Of a DNA stretch of 34,540 nt, positions 3,158 to 30,218 are shown piece by piece (positions within the stretch are counted from its first letter, which is position 1; every line of letters starts with the position of its first letter). The stretch is from a virus. Made by a program: the position numbers and the translations under genes. The notes beneath the pieces are model-generated. The model worked only from the letters and a program-made list of their open reading frames with translations, ran no database searches and had not been told where the DNA came from. The DNA lies in the IMG/VR virus record IMGVR_UViG_3300049733_000321, positions 1 through 34,540 of that record; one strand, given 5' to 3'.

Positions 3158-3762
3158 GGGACGACCTCGATCGCCGTGAGGTCTTCCACCGAAATGATGT
3201 CCATCTGCGACTGGTAATTGACGATGGCGTTGTAGCGGTCGCCCTCGAACCGAACCGGCACGTAAAATTCGAAGGTTGCCGTGACGATGGCGCCGACGCC
3301 AGGCGCCGAGACGAAGGTGATGAGCCCGCTCGAGCTCACCGTGTAATGGGTGGTGATCGTCTGCGGCGCGCCGTTCAGGAACACCGACAGCGTGCCGGCC
3401 TTGATATGCCGGATCGTTCGCACGTAGGGATTGGACCCGGCACTGTAGGTCTTGATCACCTGGAAGGCCGTCGCGGAGGCGTCGCCCACGCCGATCGGCT
3501 CGGAAGCGGCGGAATAGTCGGCATGGTCCTTCAAAAGCCACGCCTTGAAGTCGCCGCGCCGGTCCAGGAAGAAATCCCTCAGCGATGCCTCGATGGCGCG
3601 CGAGGTGTTGGTGTAGTTCCAGGTGTAGATGTGGATGGCGACATCGCGGTTTTGCAGCCGCCGCTCCTGGCCGTTGACCATCACCAGCTTGTCGGTGGAA
3701 AAGGTCGGCCCGCCCTTGAAGCCGAGGCTCACCCGCTCGTCAAGGACGACGTTATCGACCAT
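3154..3762 (-). CDS. DUF2460 tail protein (GTA gp12-like distal tail)
   Basis: The 202-residue protein matches DUF2460. The N-terminus has a short beta-region (VSLGFKGGPTFSTDKLVMVNGQERR), followed by AIHIYTWNY, the helix EASLRDFFLDRRGDFKAWLLKD, and a C-terminal FYVPVRFEGDRYN motif that is typical of the family. In GTA and related phages it forms the distal tail ring between tail tube and hub. It overlaps the tape-measure gene end by 11 bases and the DUF2163 start by four, so translation is likely coupled along the tail operon. Length is normal for the family. Confidence 0.9.
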   Translation of the reverse strand: MVDNVVLDERVSLGFKGGPTFSTDKLVMVNGQERRLQNRDVAIHIYTWNYTNTSRAIEASLRDFFLDRRGDFKAWLLKDHADYSAASEPIGVGDASATAFQVIKTYSAGSNPYVRTIRHIKAGTLSVFLNGAPQTITTHYTVSSSGLITFVSAPGVGAIVTATFEFYVPVRFEGDRYNAIVNYQSQMDIISVEDLTAIEVVP

Positions 3763-5473
3763 AGAACGACCTCAGCGCAGCGTTCGCTCCCGCCGAGGCC
3801 GCCTGCTTGATCTCGGCGGCCGATTGCGCGGATAGCCGCGTGCCTTCCAATACCGGCTTGACCACGACGGAGACGTTGACGGTGCCGGCCTCGCCGGCCG
3901 ATGGCGCGATCGGCTGGTCGGTGGCCGCGGTGGCCAGGTTTCCCGGCAGGAGGTTCGCCATCGACATGCCGGGCAGCATTTCCGGCGGACTCATGTTGCG
4001 GAAGGTGAGCCGCCGGCCTTCCCAGCTATCCTGGCTAAAACCCTGGAAGCGGAAGGAGGACGCCAGCGCCACCACGCCGGCGCCAAGCGTGTCGACGGCC
4101 TGTTGCAGGTTCTGGAAATTGTAGGAGACGGTGCCGCCGAGCCGGTCGAAATAGCCGGCGGTGTTGGAGTCCAGCCGGTCAATGCGGTGGTACACGTCGC
4201 GGGTGGCGCCGGTTTCCTCGTCGATGGCGTCCACGATCTCGTCTTCTTCGCCGTAGCGTGTGACGGTGGGCAGCGTGCGGGGGGTAAGGCCGGCGGCCTC
4301 CATCGAGGCGATTTCGGACGCGCGGAAGGCCTGCGCGAGGTCGGCCCGCACCGCCTTGGCGGCCGATGAGGTCACCCGGTAGAACTGCACCAACTCGGCC
4401 TCGAGGACGCCGATATTGTCGAGCGCCGCGCCGATGTCGAAGTTCACTTCAACACCCTCCTCGGCGAGAGCGAACAGCTCATTCAGCTTCCCGTACGCCG
4501 CCAGCAAGTCGGTCTGGATATCGGCGAACGAGCGCGCCGCCACCTCGGTGGCGCCAGCCGCCTTGGCGATGGTGTCCTTGAGCTTGCGTTCCTCTTCCGT
4601 CAGCTCGGGAAACAGGTTGAGCAGCGTCTTCCACGACGGGTTGTTGGCGAAGGCGGTAATCTTGTTCGAGGCCTCGGCCACCTGCCCGGTGAGGTGCGCC
4701 ACGCCGGTCGCGGTGCGCAGCAGGATCGGTCCCATGTTGACCAGTGCCGTGTTCCACTGGGTATTAATGATCTGGGTTTGGCGCGTAAGCTCGTCGTCGA
4801 GTTCGCCGGCCTTCTTGATGGCGCTTTCGGAAATGACGATGCCGAGCCGCCGTGCCGTGGCCACCATCTTGTCGAGCGATTCGCGGCCGCCATCGAGCAC
4901 GCGCACCATGTCGGCGCCGCCGCGGCCGAACACGGTGGTGGCCAATGCCGCCTTTTCGGTGGCGTCGGTCATCCGGCTCATCGCATCGGCGACCAGCTTG
5001 AGCCGCTCCTCCTGGTCCTGCGCGGTGAGCACGGCTCGCAACAGTTCGGGGTTCAGCTTCGAAAGCCCGGCATAGAGCGCGCCAGCGCCTTGCTGGGCGA
5101 GCCCCATGTTCTTGGCGAAGATGGCCAACGAGGTGTTGAGCGTCTCGGTCTCCACGTCGGCCTCGGCGGCGCCGAACGCGATGGCCTGAAAGAACTCGGT
5201 GCCGAGCCCGGATGCCTTGGCGCGGTTGCCGATGTCCTCCAGTTCGCCCATTGCCGTGGCGATCTGCTTTATGGTGTTGGTGAGCGCGCCGACGCCGATG
5301 CCGGCGACGATCCCACCGGCGAAGCCGCGCATGGCGTTACCGATGCCGACCATCGCCTTGGACATCCGCGCGGATTGCCGCTCGACCGTTGTTGCGGCCT
5401 TCTTGAACCCATCGGTGAACTGATGGGTGTTGGTGCTGAGTTCGATTGCGATACTACCGACGGTCGCGACCAT
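3752..5473 (-). CDS. Tape measure protein
   Basis: At 573 residues this is the longest helical protein in the tail cluster, with the expected position between tail-assembly chaperone and distal tail genes. Residues 1-40 (STNTHQFTDGFKKAATTVERQSARMSKAM) are the usual TMP start. A hydrophobic Gly/Ala stretch follows at about 42-65 (GIGNAMRGFAGGIVAGIGVGALT), then long coiled-coil and amphipathic helices (about 75-350) and a disordered C-terminal part. TMP length sets tail length; at about 0.15 nm per residue this predicts a tail of roughly 85 nm, which is inference. The ATG at 5473 shares one base with the TAA of the frameshifted chaperone (TAATG). No lysozyme or peptidase domain is visible. Confidence 0.92.
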   Translation of the reverse strand: MVATVGSIAIELSTNTHQFTDGFKKAATTVERQSARMSKAMVGIGNAMRGFAGGIVAGIGVGALTNTIKQIATAMGELEDIGNRAKASGLGTEFFQAIAFGAAEADVETETLNTSLAIFAKNMGLAQQGAGALYAGLSKLNPELLRAVLTAQDQEERLKLVADAMSRMTDATEKAALATTVFGRGGADMVRVLDGGRESLDKMVATARRLGIVISESAIKKAGELDDELTRQTQIINTQWNTALVNMGPILLRTATGVAHLTGQVAEASNKITAFANNPSWKTLLNLFPELTEEERKLKDTIAKAAGATEVAARSFADIQTDLLAAYGKLNELFALAEEGVEVNFDIGAALDNIGVLEAELVQFYRVTSSAAKAVRADLAQAFRASEIASMEAAGLTPRTLPTVTRYGEEDEIVDAIDEETGATRDVYHRIDRLDSNTAGYFDRLGGTVSYNFQNLQQAVDTLGAGVVALASSFRFQGFSQDSWEGRRLTFRNMSPPEMLPGMSMANLLPGNLATAATDQPIAPSAGEAGTVNVSVVVKPVLEGTRLSAQSAAEIKQAASAGANAALRSFYGR

Positions 5474-25378: not shown

Positions 25379-25618
25379 ATGACAGCATCACGTCCCACCC
25401 TTGCCGAGCTGCGCGCCCGCCTGGCCGACGCCGAGGACGAATACGGGCGCTGCCAGTATATCGACCACTGGCCTTCGGCGCTGGCCTGCCGCGACAGATG
25501 GCGCAGCACGATCGACCGGCTGACAGCGGAAATCACCCGCATCGAAAGCGAGGACGACAGCCGCGCCGACCGCATGGCCGGGTTGTGGAAGGCCGGAAGG
25601 ACCGACGAAGGTGATTGA
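25379..25618 (+). CDS. Hypothetical coiled-coil protein
   Basis: The 79-residue protein is mainly helical: LAELRARLADAEDEYGRCQY then ACRDRWRSTIDRLTAEITRI, with a charged tail. It starts at the base after the previous stop and overlaps the YqaJ-like gene by eight bases, so it belongs to the recombination operon. No function is recognised. Confidence 0.65.
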   Translation: MTASRPTLAELRARLADAEDEYGRCQYIDHWPSALACRDRWRSTIDRLTAEITRIESEDDSRADRMAGLWKAGRTDEGD

Positions 25619-26519
25619 GCAGCGCGCCATCACCAGCCGCGAGACGTGGCTTTCCTGGCGCAAGTCCTTCCTCGGCGCCAGCGAAATCGCCGCAGCGGCC
25701 GGGCTGGATCCGTGGCGCAGCCGGCTGCACCTCTTCATGGAAAAGACCGGGCAGATCGACGGCCAGGCTTCCAATGATGCGATGGAGCGCGGGCTGCTGC
25801 TCGAGGTCGCGGCAATCGGCGCTTTCCGCAAGGAACACCCCGAACACGAGATCATCCAGCCCAACGTTTTCGTTTGCGACACCGAGGCAAAGCTGTCCTG
25901 CACGCCGGACGCCTGGATCACCAACGACGAGAGCGGCAAGCGCATCAACGTCCAGATCAAGTGCACCAGCCCGGCCAGCTTTGAAAAATGGAACGGCGCC
26001 GTCCCGGTCTATTACCAGCTTCAATGCTGCTGCGAGGCGATGCTGGCCGACTGCGCCGGCTCGATCCTTGCCGTGTTCCTGGTCGACAGCTGGTCGGCGC
26101 GCATGCGCTATTTTTCGATCCCGCGCCACCCGGCCGCCGAGGAGCGCATCCGCGCCCTTGCCGCTGAGTTCTGGCGCGACATCGAGGCAGGCCATATGCC
26201 GCCGCCAGACTATGCCAGAGATGCCGAGCTGGTGACAAAACTGTTTCCGCCGCGCCCCGACGTGCCGGTGATCGACCTTTCGGAGGACAACCGGCTCGGC
26301 CAGGCATTGGAGCGGCGCGCCCGGCGAAAGGCCTACATCAAGGCGGCGGAAGATTGGTGCAAGTCGGTCGAGGCCGAGCTGATCCATAAGCTCGCCGGCG
26401 CCGAACGTGCCACGCTGCCGGGCTGGCGCATTTCGCACAAAATGCAGCACCGGCAAGGCTACCAGGTCGCAGCCAGGGATGCGGCGGTGCTCAGGATTGC
26501 AAGGGAGAAGGAAGGATGA
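25611..26519 (+). CDS. YqaJ-like viral recombinase (exonuclease)
   Basis: The 302-residue protein matches the YqaJ/lambda Exo-like nuclease family. It has WLSWRKSFLGASEIAAAAGL near 13-32 (the GASE motif with an active-site Glu) and AMERGLLLEVAAIGAF near 57-72. The metal-binding core is LSCTPDAWI (Asp near 103) and NVQIKCTSP (Gln-x-Lys near 117-119). It resects DNA 5' to 3' so that the Bet-like partner encoded next can anneal single strands. The start is GTG with an upstream GAAGG. Its stop overlaps the bet start by four bases (ATGA). The C-terminal 90 residues are helical and lack a recognised domain. Confidence 0.92.
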   Translation: MIEQRAITSRETWLSWRKSFLGASEIAAAAGLDPWRSRLHLFMEKTGQIDGQASNDAMERGLLLEVAAIGAFRKEHPEHEIIQPNVFVCDTEAKLSCTPDAWITNDESGKRINVQIKCTSPASFEKWNGAVPVYYQLQCCCEAMLADCAGSILAVFLVDSWSARMRYFSIPRHPAAEERIRALAAEFWRDIEAGHMPPPDYARDAELVTKLFPPRPDVPVIDLSEDNRLGQALERRARRKAYIKAAEDWCKSVEAELIHKLAGAERATLPGWRISHKMQHRQGYQVAARDAAVLRIAREKEG

Positions 26520-27235
26520 CCGGCACATCGCTCATCACCCGGATGGCCGAACGGCGCCATCTCGATACGCAGCAATTTTATGACACGATCAAAAATACCG
26601 TGATGCCGAAGGCCGCGACGAAGGACCAGCTCGCCGCCTTCCTCATGGTCGCCGATCGTTATCAGCTCGATCCTCTGGCAAAGGAAATCTACGCCTTTCC
26701 GGGCAAGGGCGGCGGCATCACGCCGGTGGTCAGCGTGGACGGCTGGATCAACCTGGTGAACTCTCACCCACAGAGCAATGGTTTTGAGTTTTCCTATACC
26801 CAGGACAGCGAGGGAAAGCTCGCGTCCGTCACTTGTAGAATGTTCAGAAAAGATCGCGACCATCCCACCGTCGTGACCGAACTACTGCGCGAAAACTGGC
26901 GTGACACCGATCCCTGGCGGCAGATGCCGAGCCGCATGTTGAGGCACAAAGCATTCAAGGAAGCTGCCAGGTATTGTTATGGCTTCGCCGGCATCACCGA
27001 CGAGGACGAGGCCCGCGACATCGTGCGCGGCATCAACGCCGAGCACAGCCAAGCGGTGATCGTGCATGACCTTGACGCCTTTGCCGAAGGCCGGATCGGC
27101 AATCCTTCGACAGAAGATGTTCAGGACATGGGAGACTCGCCGGTTTCCGAAGCGCTAGCCGGCGAGGAAGGCGGCGGCGGTTCTCCTCAACGGCAACAGG
27201 CCGCCGCCGCTGATCGCCTGGAAAACCTGCCATGA
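26516..27235 (+). CDS. bet: Phage recombination protein Bet (RecT/Redbeta family)
   Basis: The 239-residue protein has the Bet signature: FLMVADRYQLDPLAKEIYAF near 42-61, then GKGGGITPVVSVDGWINLVN near 63-82. It also has RMLRHKAFKEAARYCYGFAG near 141-160. It binds single-stranded DNA and promotes annealing, acting with the adjacent YqaJ-like exonuclease as a Red-type recombination system for concatemer formation or repair. The C-terminal 50 residues are acidic and Gly/Gln-rich, as usual for the family. An SD (GAAGGAAGG) precedes the ATG inside the exonuclease gene. Confidence 0.93.
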   Translation: MTGTSLITRMAERRHLDTQQFYDTIKNTVMPKAATKDQLAAFLMVADRYQLDPLAKEIYAFPGKGGGITPVVSVDGWINLVNSHPQSNGFEFSYTQDSEGKLASVTCRMFRKDRDHPTVVTELLRENWRDTDPWRQMPSRMLRHKAFKEAARYCYGFAGITDEDEARDIVRGINAEHSQAVIVHDLDAFAEGRIGNPSTEDVQDMGDSPVSEALAGEEGGGGSPQRQQAAAADRLENLP

Positions 27236-27492
27236 ACCTCGATCTGGACGCCCTCGCGCTATCGGTCGACACCACCGAGCTGACGGGGAAGATCTCGCTG
27301 GAACTGGCGGACAAGGATCCCCGGGTGCAGGCATTGGTGCTGGCCGATCTTGTCTCGATTCACCTCTGCGGCTTTCCGCGATCGGCGCGCAAGGACATGC
27401 TGGGCATCCTGGTTGTGATGATCAATGACATGGTGCCCATCAACGAAGCGCGCATTTACGACGGCCTCGGCCATCCGCAGGACAGGAATTGA
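27232..27492 (+). CDS. Hypothetical protein in the recombination operon
   Basis: The 86-residue protein starts in an ATGA overlap with bet and ends in a TGATG overlap with the next gene. It is helical and fairly hydrophobic, with DPRVQALVLADLVSIHLCGF near 29-48 and RKDMLGILVVMINDMVPINE near 53-72. The pattern resembles small helical proteins of unknown role in prophage early regions. No family is recognised. Confidence 0.7.
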   Translation: MNLDLDALALSVDTTELTGKISLELADKDPRVQALVLADLVSIHLCGFPRSARKDMLGILVVMINDMVPINEARIYDGLGHPQDRN

Positions 27493-27725
27493 TGACCCTT
27501 CGCCAGGACGCCATCGCCTATCCGCCGCGCGGGCTTAGCCGCGAGGAAGCGGCGCGTTATGTCGGCGTCGGTACCACGAAGTTCGACGAGCTGGTCGGCG
27601 ACCGTCGCATGCCGAAGCCGCGCCGCATCGACGGCCGCACCGTGTGGGACCGCGTCGAACTCGACATCGCCTTTAGCGAGCTGCCGCACGAAGGCCAGCG
27701 CAATTTCTTCGATCGGGCGTCTTGA
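27492..27725 (+). CDS. AlpA/excisionase-like DNA-binding protein
   Basis: The 77-residue protein has the winged-helix pattern of AlpA/MerR-like factors: LSREEAARYVGVGTTKFDEL then VGDRRMPKPRRIDGRTVWDR and VELDIAFSEL. Such proteins act as excisionases or integrase regulators. The ATG shares one base with the preceding stop and has SD AGGA. It is one of two such genes upstream of the integrase, so one may be the recombination directionality factor. Confidence 0.8.
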   Translation: MTLRQDAIAYPPRGLSREEAARYVGVGTTKFDELVGDRRMPKPRRIDGRTVWDRVELDIAFSELPHEGQRNFFDRAS

Positions 27726-28224: not shown

Positions 28225-28355
28225 CGAAAGAAGTGTTGGCCAAGATCCTGGAGCACCTCACAAACATCGAGGCCAGTCTCGACAGGATCGAGAAAACACT
28301 GATCGCCATGCGCGCCGAGATCAACCGCATCATCGCCCTGGAGCGGAAGAAATGA
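28221..28355 (+). CDS. 44-residue coiled-coil peptide
   Basis: Too short for usual gene finding, but bracketed by ATGA overlaps with the membrane protein before (28221-28224) and the integrase after (28352-28355). The sequence MTKEVLAKILEHLTNIEASL and DRIEKTLIAMRAEINRIIAL has regular heptads. It may pair with the preceding coiled-coil membrane protein. Function unknown. Confidence 0.65.
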   Translation: MTKEVLAKILEHLTNIEASLDRIEKTLIAMRAEINRIIALERKK

Positions 28356-29470
28356 AACATCCCGATTATCCCGGCGTCTCGTCATTCAAGGATAATCGCG
28401 GCATCATCCGCTGGCGCTTCCGCAAGACTGGACTGAAACCTTGTTACCTGCCCGGCGAGCCGCATTCACGCGAGTTCGATGCAATCTATCAGGCCGCAAT
28501 TGAAGGCCGCGCCGTTCGGCAAGCACCAATCATCAAGATGCCTGGCGCTGCATATCCAACCTCGCTCAATGCGGCCTGGTGCAAATTGCAGGAAACCGCC
28601 AAGTGGAAAAAGTTGGATCGGGAAAGTCAGTCTCTTTACGCGCGCTATGTTGAGGAATTCCTGCGTCGGCCGATCGGCTCGATGACGGCCGGAGATGGGC
28701 CGGTCGCTGATCTTCGGCCACGCCATATTGCCGCCGCGATGGACGACCTGGCGGATAAGCCGCACAAAGCCAAGCTGCTTTTGATCGGACTGAAAAAGCT
28801 GATGAAAGTAGCGATCTTGCAGGAATGGATTGAATACGATCCAACCTACGGCATTGAACCGCCGGACACCACCACGGATGGACATCTGGCCTGGCCGGCG
28901 CATATCTGCGCCAAATTCGAATTGCGCTGGCCAATTGGAACGCAAGCTCGCACCGCCTATGCGCTGGCCTTGTGGATGGGCAATCGGCGCAGCGATATTG
29001 CACTGTTGCGCTGGGATCAACTGACGACACGGATCATAGCATCTGAGGATGGATTGCGGCGCTCTGTTGAGGGATTCGCCTTCATTCAGTTCAAGGGACG
29101 CAATCGCAAGGGAACGGGCGAAATCTTCATTCCGATCACGCCAATGCTGGCGGAATCGCTGGCGCCATTGCCGCGAGGTACCGAGACCGTACTGACGCGC
29201 CAGGATGGTCAACCATACAATTACAAGTCGCTGACTGCGATGATGTGGCACTGGCGCAAGGCTGCCAGCATTGAAGGTAAGTATTCACTGCATGGCTTGC
29301 GCAAGGCGCTCGGCGGCATGCTCGCCGATGCCGAAGCTACCGGCCATCAATCCAAGGATGTTCTCGGCCATCGATCGATGGCTGAAGTCGACCGCTATTC
29401 TCGCTCCCGCAATCGCGCGGCTGGCTCGGTCACGGGAATGGAAAAAGTTGTCAAGCTGGTGCGTGGGTGA
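28352..29470 (+). CDS. int: Tyrosine recombinase integrase
   Basis: The 372-residue protein has an N-terminal arm-binding-type segment (MKHPDYPGVSSFKDNRG, then IIRWRFRKTGLKPCYLPGEP). A SAM-like core-binding domain spans about 70-165, and the catalytic domain carries Arg212 (GNRRSDIALLRW), Lys248 (FKGRN), His314-x-x-Arg317 (HGLRKALGG), His340 (LGHRS) and Tyr349 (VDRYSRS). All catalytic residues are present, so it should integrate the phage into the host chromosome. It follows two AlpA-like genes in the same operon. Its N-terminal segment resembles that of the next gene. Confidence 0.97.
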   Translation: MKHPDYPGVSSFKDNRGIIRWRFRKTGLKPCYLPGEPHSREFDAIYQAAIEGRAVRQAPIIKMPGAAYPTSLNAAWCKLQETAKWKKLDRESQSLYARYVEEFLRRPIGSMTAGDGPVADLRPRHIAAAMDDLADKPHKAKLLLIGLKKLMKVAILQEWIEYDPTYGIEPPDTTTDGHLAWPAHICAKFELRWPIGTQARTAYALALWMGNRRSDIALLRWDQLTTRIIASEDGLRRSVEGFAFIQFKGRNRKGTGEIFIPITPMLAESLAPLPRGTETVLTRQDGQPYNYKSLTAMMWHWRKAASIEGKYSLHGLRKALGGMLADAEATGHQSKDVLGHRSMAEVDRYSRSRNRAAGSVTGMEKVVKLVRG

Positions 29471-30063
29471 TGAATACAATCGCGGAAGAGATACCTATCC
29501 ATCCAGATTATCCTAATGCCGTCCCGTTTCGCATGCTCGGTCGCCGTATCCATTGGCGTCGGCGTAACTTTCAATTTGATGATGGAAGCTGGTCCTACAA
29601 TGATTTACCCGGCAAGCCAGGCGATAGGAAATTTCACATTCGCTATCACGGACTGGAATATGCTCAGAAAGCTCATCCGATTCCGACAAAACCGATCTGG
29701 CGCCCAGTCACCGATCAGGAACACTTCATTGACAACCTGGTGAGAAAGGCCAAGGAACGATCAAGACGAAGCGGTCGCCGGTTCGATATCGATTCTCGAT
29801 GGGTAATCGAACAATGCGCCAAGCAAGGTTGGTGTTGCGCGCTCACCGGCGTCAACTTTCAATTTGAGACTGATCATCGTCGCTGGTGTCTCTACGCCCC
29901 AAGCATGGACCGCATGGATCCTAACATGGGCTATACGAAGGACAACGTTCGTATTGTCCTGCTCGGACTCAACATTGCGTTAAACGATTTTGGCCTGGAG
30001 TTTTTTGACAAGCTCGCCGCCGCAAGATTGGCGTGGAAGGCCGGAAACCAGGGCAATGGCTAG
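29470..30063 (+). CDS. HNH-type nuclease with integrase-like N-terminal segment
   Basis: The 197-residue protein starts at the ATG sharing one base with the integrase stop; a GTG one codon earlier is also possible. The N-terminus (IHPDYPNAVPFRMLGRRIHW, NDLPGKPGDRKFHIRYHG) resembles the integrase N-terminus in HPDYP, F, R-x-W-R, LPG-x-P and R-x-F spacing. The C-terminal half is an HNH/EndoVII-like nuclease: CALTGVNF near 123-130, SMDRMDPNMGYTKDNVRIV near 145-163 and a NIALNDFG helix. It may be a homing or recombination nuclease that binds the same DNA sites as the integrase. The first GCTAGC repeat covers its stop codon. Base composition is less GC-rich than the neighbours, suggesting later acquisition. 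Confidence 0.8.
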   Translation: MNTIAEEIPIHPDYPNAVPFRMLGRRIHWRRRNFQFDDGSWSYNDLPGKPGDRKFHIRYHGLEYAQKAHPIPTKPIWRPVTDQEHFIDNLVRKAKERSRRSGRRFDIDSRWVIEQCAKQGWCCALTGVNFQFETDHRRWCLYAPSMDRMDPNMGYTKDNVRIVLLGLNIALNDFGLEFFDKLAAARLAWKAGNQGNG

Positions 30064-30218
30064 CATGGCTAGCGGGTTGGCTAGCAATCCATATTCCATC
30101 AATCATAACAAATGTTTGAACTTAACCATTGGGTAAGGTTAACTCTTTACTATAATTGATAAAAATTATCAGCTAGCCAATTTCGTTTCTCCATGCGTTC
30201 CAGTCTATTTGGCTAGCC
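30058..30218. repeat. Five GCTAGC palindromes in an AT-rich gap
   Basis: GCTAGC occurs at 30059, 30068, 30080, 30172 and 30212. Three copies are flanked as TTGGCTAGC (30077 and 30209 direct, 30172-30180 inverted). Between them lie TTAACC/GGTTAA (30122-30142) and GATAA/TTATC (30158-30170) inverted repeats in AT-rich sequence. It is the only gap of its kind and lies at the convergence of both transcription units, beside integrase and HNH. It is a candidate attP, bidirectional terminator or nuclease/protein-binding array. Confidence 0.75.

Follow-up and report, generated by a model that had tools for sequence, protein, structure and literature searches.

An HNH protein with an integrase-type N-terminal domain, encoded at the integrase gene and candidate attP of eight viruses

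Why would an HNH protein share its N-terminal segment with the integrase encoded directly before it? The question arises from a 34,540-base IMG/VR virus record, analyzed over its whole length and called here the window, in which the ATG of an HNH gene overlaps the stop codon of a tyrosine integrase gene (TGATG). An initial annotation, made from the letters alone, placed the HNH protein at 29470-30063, directly after the integrase (28352-29470), and the coordinates proved exact. It also claimed that the two proteins share an N-terminal segment, that they are otherwise unrelated, and that a repeat array lies near the HNH gene. It proposed further that the nuclease could be directed to the arm sites at attP, as half of a linked integration/cleavage pair or as a homing element built from an integrase fragment, an interpretation that the results below support in part. 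The features of the region are listed in Table 1.

Table 1. Features of the integration module in the window.
Feature	Position	Strand	Details
Small helix-turn-helix protein	27489..27725	+	phrog_25900 2.4e-16; phrog_66 excisionase 9e-4
Tyrosine integrase, lambda type	28352..29470	+	372 aa; PF00589, phrog_1, AF2 model
Integrase N-terminal arm-type domain (modelled)	28355..28510	+	Residues about 2-53; three strands, then helix
HNH protein	29470..30063	+	197 aa; ORF and phrog_3322
Integrase-type N-terminal domain of HNH protein	29497..29673	+	Residues about 10-68; BLASTP, profile, hhalign
EndoVII-like HNH core	29731..30027	+	Residues about 88-186; phrog_3322, phrog_1035
Three direct TGGCTAGC copies, candidate attP arm-type sites	30057, 30066, 30078 (30057..30085)	+	Layout as in L090
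A+T-rich spacer, inferred to hold attP core	30086..30171	.	Flanked by direct and inverted copies, like the L090 core
Inverted TGGCTAGC copy, candidate arm-type site	30172..30179	-	L090 has one too
Fifth TGGCTAGC copy, candidate arm-type site	30210..30217	+	

The N-terminal domain of lambda integrase binds attP arm sites. The integrase of the window has arm, core and catalytic regions, as seen from its match to the tyrosine recombinase family PF00589 (1.6e-10) and from a full-length alignment with lambda integrase, and phrog_1 matches it over residues 14-353 (1.5e-21). Its AF2 model (pLDDT 85) has full-length lambda integrase as the best PDB match (1z1b, E 2.9e-11, 370 columns aligned). In this model the N-terminal domain, predicted to be of the lambda arm-binding type, consists of strands 9-13, 19-23 and 31-33 and a helix at 40-50, mostly at pLDDT 78-90, and its motif is family-wide among alphaproteobacterial phage integrases. 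The small helix-turn-helix protein of the window is possibly the excisionase or a regulator of the same integration module; Agrobacterium phage Rivra and Microcystis phage Mae-JY35 have a similar small gene ahead of their integrase. Further upstream, at 25611-27235 on the plus strand, a RecE-like exonuclease is encoded, followed by a Bet/RecT-like annealing protein.

The C-terminal part of the HNH protein belongs to a different protein class. The phrog_3322 endonuclease profile matches residues 89-186 (3.4e-18), phrog_1035 is matched as well, and the core carries the signature APSMDRMD..GYTKDNVRIV...N. AF2 models nearly all of this core at pLDDT above 85, and its best Foldseek match is the HNH restriction enzyme PacI (3ldy, E 0.03, prob 0.99). 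With a PF00589 recombinase on one side and a phrog_3322 endonuclease on the other, the remainders of the two proteins are indeed unrelated. Pfam gave no match for the HNH protein of the window, and neither Pfam, NCBIfam nor PADLOC names a family for the proteins of its type described below.

The similarity of the two N-termini, by contrast with these remainders, is evident by several measures. In a single BLASTP comparison, integrase residues 3-48 aligned with HNH residues 12-62 at 17 of 51 identical positions (33%, E=3e-4). A profile built from 17 integrase N-termini, with the HNH protein left out, scored 18.3 bits on the HNH protein, against a best score of 10.4 among 5000 shuffles; as a single target the protein obtained 4.5e-7, and among all ORFs of the window it ranked second to the integrase itself (E=3.6e-4). 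These results bear out the shared segment. Profile-profile comparison, where an absence of similarity had been named in advance as the outcome that would speak against the claim, was likewise favorable. Aligned by hhalign with integrase N-termini, the N-termini of the HNH protein and of seven relatives scored 93.7% (E=2e-7), the subset of the window type, which includes the window protein, 97.7% (2.5e-12), the subset of a second type 82% (1e-5), and the subset of lambda type, compared with lambda-type integrases, 95% (2.6e-8), while control HNH proteins with zinc-finger N-termini reached 0.1% (E=0.5). Structure prediction of both N-termini, proposed as another check, gave three strands plus a helix for the integrase, whereas residues 1-50 of the HNH model are poor (pLDDT about 40) and only a helix at 53-68 is modelled, at low confidence, so that the fold of the HNH N-terminus rests on homology. 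No Pfam arm-binding match was obtained in the eight HNH proteins or in the N-termini of the integrases scanned, Pfam models leaving this integrase N-terminal subfamily uncovered, and no sequence relatives of the domain were found in the PDB. By these sequence comparisons, the shared segment is a true N-terminal domain of the integrase type.

Could the similarity be a chance resemblance of short basic segments? The segment is short and pairwise identity is low, but none of the 5000 shuffles scored as high, profile-profile values ran from 2e-7 to 2.5e-12, and seven further cases came to light. Shuffles, blind scoring (see below) and profile-profile comparison thus reject chance, which we consider extremely improbable. 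A recent duplication of the 5′ end of the integrase gene was also rejected, since protein identity is just 33% and other integrases match the segment equally well or better.

The same arrangement, an integrase-type HNH protein at an integrase, was found again in seven other, unrelated viruses. Searches with the segment itself were unproductive: DNA patterns for HPDYP..LPGxPG gave integrases only, apart from chance matches, in IMG/VR, and chance matches only in bacterial genomes, and therefore the exact segment is not common to other HNH proteins that can be found in this way. A scan of IMG/VR with the single HNH protein returned no relatives. The N-terminal profile met integrases and chance frames only in 385 alphaproteobacterial genomes, and the few HNH matches of an HNH profile in these and in 398 Pseudomonadota genomes all lay outside the N-terminal part; among the matches listed for named phages and plasmids there was no arm-type HNH protein. 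Relatives were found by searching with the HNH domain, after the exact-pattern searches had given integrases, and 161 distinct ones were gathered. Seven of these, all from IMG/VR viruses, bear integrase-type N-termini, and all seven are encoded beside an integrase gene or opposite the integrase across the attachment site. The HNH gene directly follows the integrase in L090, L092, L174, L185 and L192, the ORFs overlapping in L192. L090 and L092 were the first relatives found after an integrase, and their integrase-like N-termini are of other subtypes; the N-terminus of L090 matched the integrase profile at 1.5e-10, that of L092 matched integrase L084 at 3e-8, and that of L184 matched the integrase of Pseudomonas phage Fyn8 at 6e-9.

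In the prophages L180 and L184, HNH protein and integrase lie at opposite ends of the record. Both records (G747 and G748) contain direct repeats of 51 bp, terminal in G747 and no more than 17 bases from the left end in G748, which include the tRNA-like GGACTCGAACC, in our reading the sequence of the 3′ part of a tRNA. Owing to these end repeats, the two genes would be neighbors across attP when the genome is circular. The N-terminus of the L180 HNH protein (KRLASGRVAYYAYADKGG) is very similar to the one on the integrase of this prophage (KKLASGRLKIYYYTEAG), and the same holds for L184. A second, different HNH-type gene (DHITPCAAGGDNSAENCAFLCKPCH) directly follows the arm-type one at the left end of the L180 prophage (725-1153), and in G749, the record of L192, a second tyrosine integrase is encoded at 2135-2515, near the end opposite the overlapping integrase-HNH pair. 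In L006, positions 4001-4140 encode an N-terminus of integrase type (60% identical, MKHPDYPGVSS...), after which comes, close to where the contig ends, a short reading frame of unrelated sequence; this may be an integrase cut short or an N-terminal domain standing alone.

The association with integrases is selective. A same-strand integrase next door was seen for five of the 161 relatives, all five with integrase-type N-termini, and for none of about 135 other relatives, whose N-termini are zinc-finger-like (CxxC) or of other kinds; in L329 an integrase lies about 2 kb off on the opposite strand. Blind scoring of 142 HNH N-termini against 32 integrase N-termini, with each protein's own partner integrase excluded, placed L090, L174, L184, L092, L185 and L180 at the top (z 7.7-24), all of them linked to an integrase or attachment site, and the rest scored at most 5.1. 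L192 was outside this top group and was assigned by the match to its own integrase and the ORF overlap.

The repeat array that had been reported at 30058-30218 is real. The window contains five copies of TGGCTAGC, against 0.55 expected, and all are located at 30057-30217, in the order three direct, one inverted and one direct, the first overlapping the HNH stop codon. In L090, where the integrase belongs to the same subfamily, GGCTAAC occurs in direct orientation at 2557, 2569 and 2582 and inverted at 2696; these copies are confined to the interval between integrase end and HNH start and surround a tRNA-like core, GGGCCCGGAGGGACTCG. Three copies of AGTGACTAA lie between integrase end and HNH start in L174, the last of them some 16 bases ahead of the HNH start. 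In L185, three copies of TTGTAAAAY, at the integrase stop and across the start codon of the HNH gene, surround a tRNA-like core, and a 17-base repeat (94% identical; 3513-3529 at the integrase stop, 3736-3752 at the HNH start) brackets this attP-like core. TTGCGGTGCA is present just three times in the 40 kb of G747, on both sides of att: twice between att and integrase and once immediately upstream of the HNH gene. At the L092, L180 and L192 loci, no arm-like repeats were found. Judged by layout, the TGGCTAGC array and the comparable arrays at four related loci look like candidate attP arm sites.

If the N-terminal domain came from an integrase, was it the neighboring one? HNH N-termini fit their own integrases better than under permuted pairing, the summed match exceeding 98.5% of permutations (p=0.015). 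The own integrase ranked first in L180, L184 and L192, second in the window and L174, and fourth or fifth in L090, L092 and L185, the three of eight pairs in which the HNH domain is closer to another integrase subtype. The catalytic domains of the pairs did not co-diverge (rho 0.12, p 0.55). Pairing, as far as sequence tells, is non-random and not strict, and together with the lack of co-divergence this pattern suggests that the N-terminal domain was exchanged repeatedly, rather than inherited from one fused ancestor, eight cases being few. The earlier proposal of an element built from an integrase fragment thus remains plausible in its general form, but not as a recent copy of the neighbor, given the three domains of different subtype.

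We favor the reading, and give it an even chance, that the HNH protein is a free-standing homing-type endonuclease directed by its integrase-type domain to attP arm sites. It combines what is expected of such enzymes, a homing-associated nuclease family and a separate predicted DNA-binding module. The homing-type reading draws on the homology of the N-terminal domain to integrase N-termini, on its recurrence in eight viruses and on its placement at integrase and attP, with arm-like arrays at the HNH gene in five loci and N-termini that match their own integrases more than permuted ones. It draws also on the position of family relatives, as in Achromobacter phage JWAlpha (L011) and Pseudomonas phage Drael01 (L010) EndoVII-like HNH genes, whose annotation is endonuclease or hypothetical protein, separate the two parts of a split RNA polymerase gene, a homing-type position. 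Presence and absence speak for it as well, since in L002 the integrase is 54% identical, an arm-like array follows its stop immediately, and an HNH gene is lacking. In the mechanism that we infer, a two-domain nuclease at the phage attachment site, made of an integrase arm-type DNA-binding domain and an EndoVII-like HNH domain, would bind as its DNA target the arm sites on either side of attP in a related phage that co-infects or superinfects the host. The HNH domain would cut or nick near the bound sites, and repair would copy the HNH gene, with the adjacent integrase and attP region, into the cut phage, to the competitive advantage of the element; the RecE-like and Bet/RecT-like genes near the integration module would favor such repair-based transfer. 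Nuclease activity is uncertain, because the eight arm-type proteins do not conserve the usual first histidine of HNH and have S-x-D-R in its place. The phage's own attP carries the same candidate sites, so that self-protection must be explained, and the homing reading is weakened by the three of eight HNH domains that fit another integrase subtype better than their own. No close pair of empty and occupied sites showing recent HNH movement was found, L002 being only a distant comparison. A more specific version, which is tentative and rather unlikely, is that a class of temperate phages carries an attP-targeted nuclease, an HNH enzyme that recognizes the arm-site code of integrases, be it that of its own phage or of a rival, and cuts the attachment region of competitors. 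If it is true, the integration module would both integrate and defend or spread itself, and HNH proteins whose domain is of a different integrase subtype would have rival phages as their targets.

The chief rival to homing is a role as an accessory of recombination, in which the HNH protein would bind arm sites together with the integrase and nick or remodel attP, attL or attR for integration or excision. Its location at or inside the attP arm-like array in five loci, the overlap with the integrase gene in the window and L192, and the matching of N-termini to partner integrases are all consistent with such a role, and a precedent exists in the HK97 HNH protein that assists terminase at cos, in the account cited in PMC10448857. 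Yet the protein is dispensable, as it is absent directly after most integrases of the family (e.g., L002, L004, L007 and L008), its position and orientation relative to the integrase vary (between integrase and array, beyond attP, or convergent across att), and three of eight pairs are mismatched; we regard an accessory role as unlikely.

The missing histidine would also fit a regulator whose HNH domain is inactive or secondary, and which competes with the integrase for arm sites, tuning recombination or its own transcription. The arm-like sites that L174, L185 and G747 have at the HNH start or close to it, and the annotation of some relatives as sigma-factor decoys, point the same way. Set against this are the residues S, D, R, Y, T, D, N, R and N, invariant in the HNH core of all eight proteins, which suggest a working core, and the split-gene positions of relatives, which are typical of active homing enzymes, and we think a regulator improbable. 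Hardly more probable is generic domain capture, whereby a small beta-sheet DNA-binding domain was taken from the integrase pool and now serves an unrelated target, integrase and attP being merely a tolerated insertion site. HNH proteins are known to mix DNA-binding modules such as AP2 and zinc fingers (PMC10448857), and both the differing subtypes in L090, L092 and L185 and the absence of co-divergence would be expected from capture. It sits poorly, however, with the non-random pairing and with the occurrence of arm-type N-termini solely in HNH proteins beside an integrase or att, the roughly 135 relatives at other places having none.

AP2 and integrase arm domains have a common three-strand-plus-helix fold. 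The homing-type nuclease that we favor can be compared with the HNH-AP2 homing endonucleases of phages, cyanobacteria and protists, such as the IPA-HNH proteins of ICP1 (PMC10448857), which likewise fuse an HNH nuclease to a small DNA-binding domain. Their order, N-terminal HNH_3 and C-terminal AP2, is reversed in the window protein, where the putative binding domain is N-terminal and the HNH domain C-terminal. Moreover, its HNH domain is EndoVII-like and not HNH_3, its putative binding domain resembles integrase N-termini by profile, and it is located at integrase and attP and not in structural or polymerase genes; neither an AP2 nor an HNH_3 Pfam match was found in the eight arm-type proteins. 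The EndoVII-like phage HNH proteins (phrog_3322 and phrog_1035; JWAlpha, Drael01) are of the same core family, with relatives in homing-type positions, but away from integrases they carry zinc-finger-like CxxC or other N-termini instead of the integrase-type domain. The HNH N-termini align with those of integrases with the lambda arm-binding domain (1z1b, 5j0n), whereas here this domain is joined to a nuclease and not to core-binding and catalytic recombinase domains. As in HK97, an HNH gene neighbors a DNA site on which a second enzyme of the phage works; here the site is attP, the partner is the integrase, and the HNH protein itself bears an integrase-type domain. Literature searches limited to an open-access library found no account of an HNH protein with an integrase arm-type domain at attP, which is not proof of absence. 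We rate the arm-type HNH proteins as a variant of the HNH homing-endonuclease kind, in a combination named in no library used.

Site-specific integration and homing nucleases, usually studied apart, are linked here by a shared DNA-binding domain at one site. If this domain reads attP arm sites, the HNH proteins would serve as test cases, already at hand, for the encoding of arm-type specificity and would show in nature the joining of recombinase targeting domains to nucleases, and they may represent a route for integration modules to spread or compete between temperate phages.
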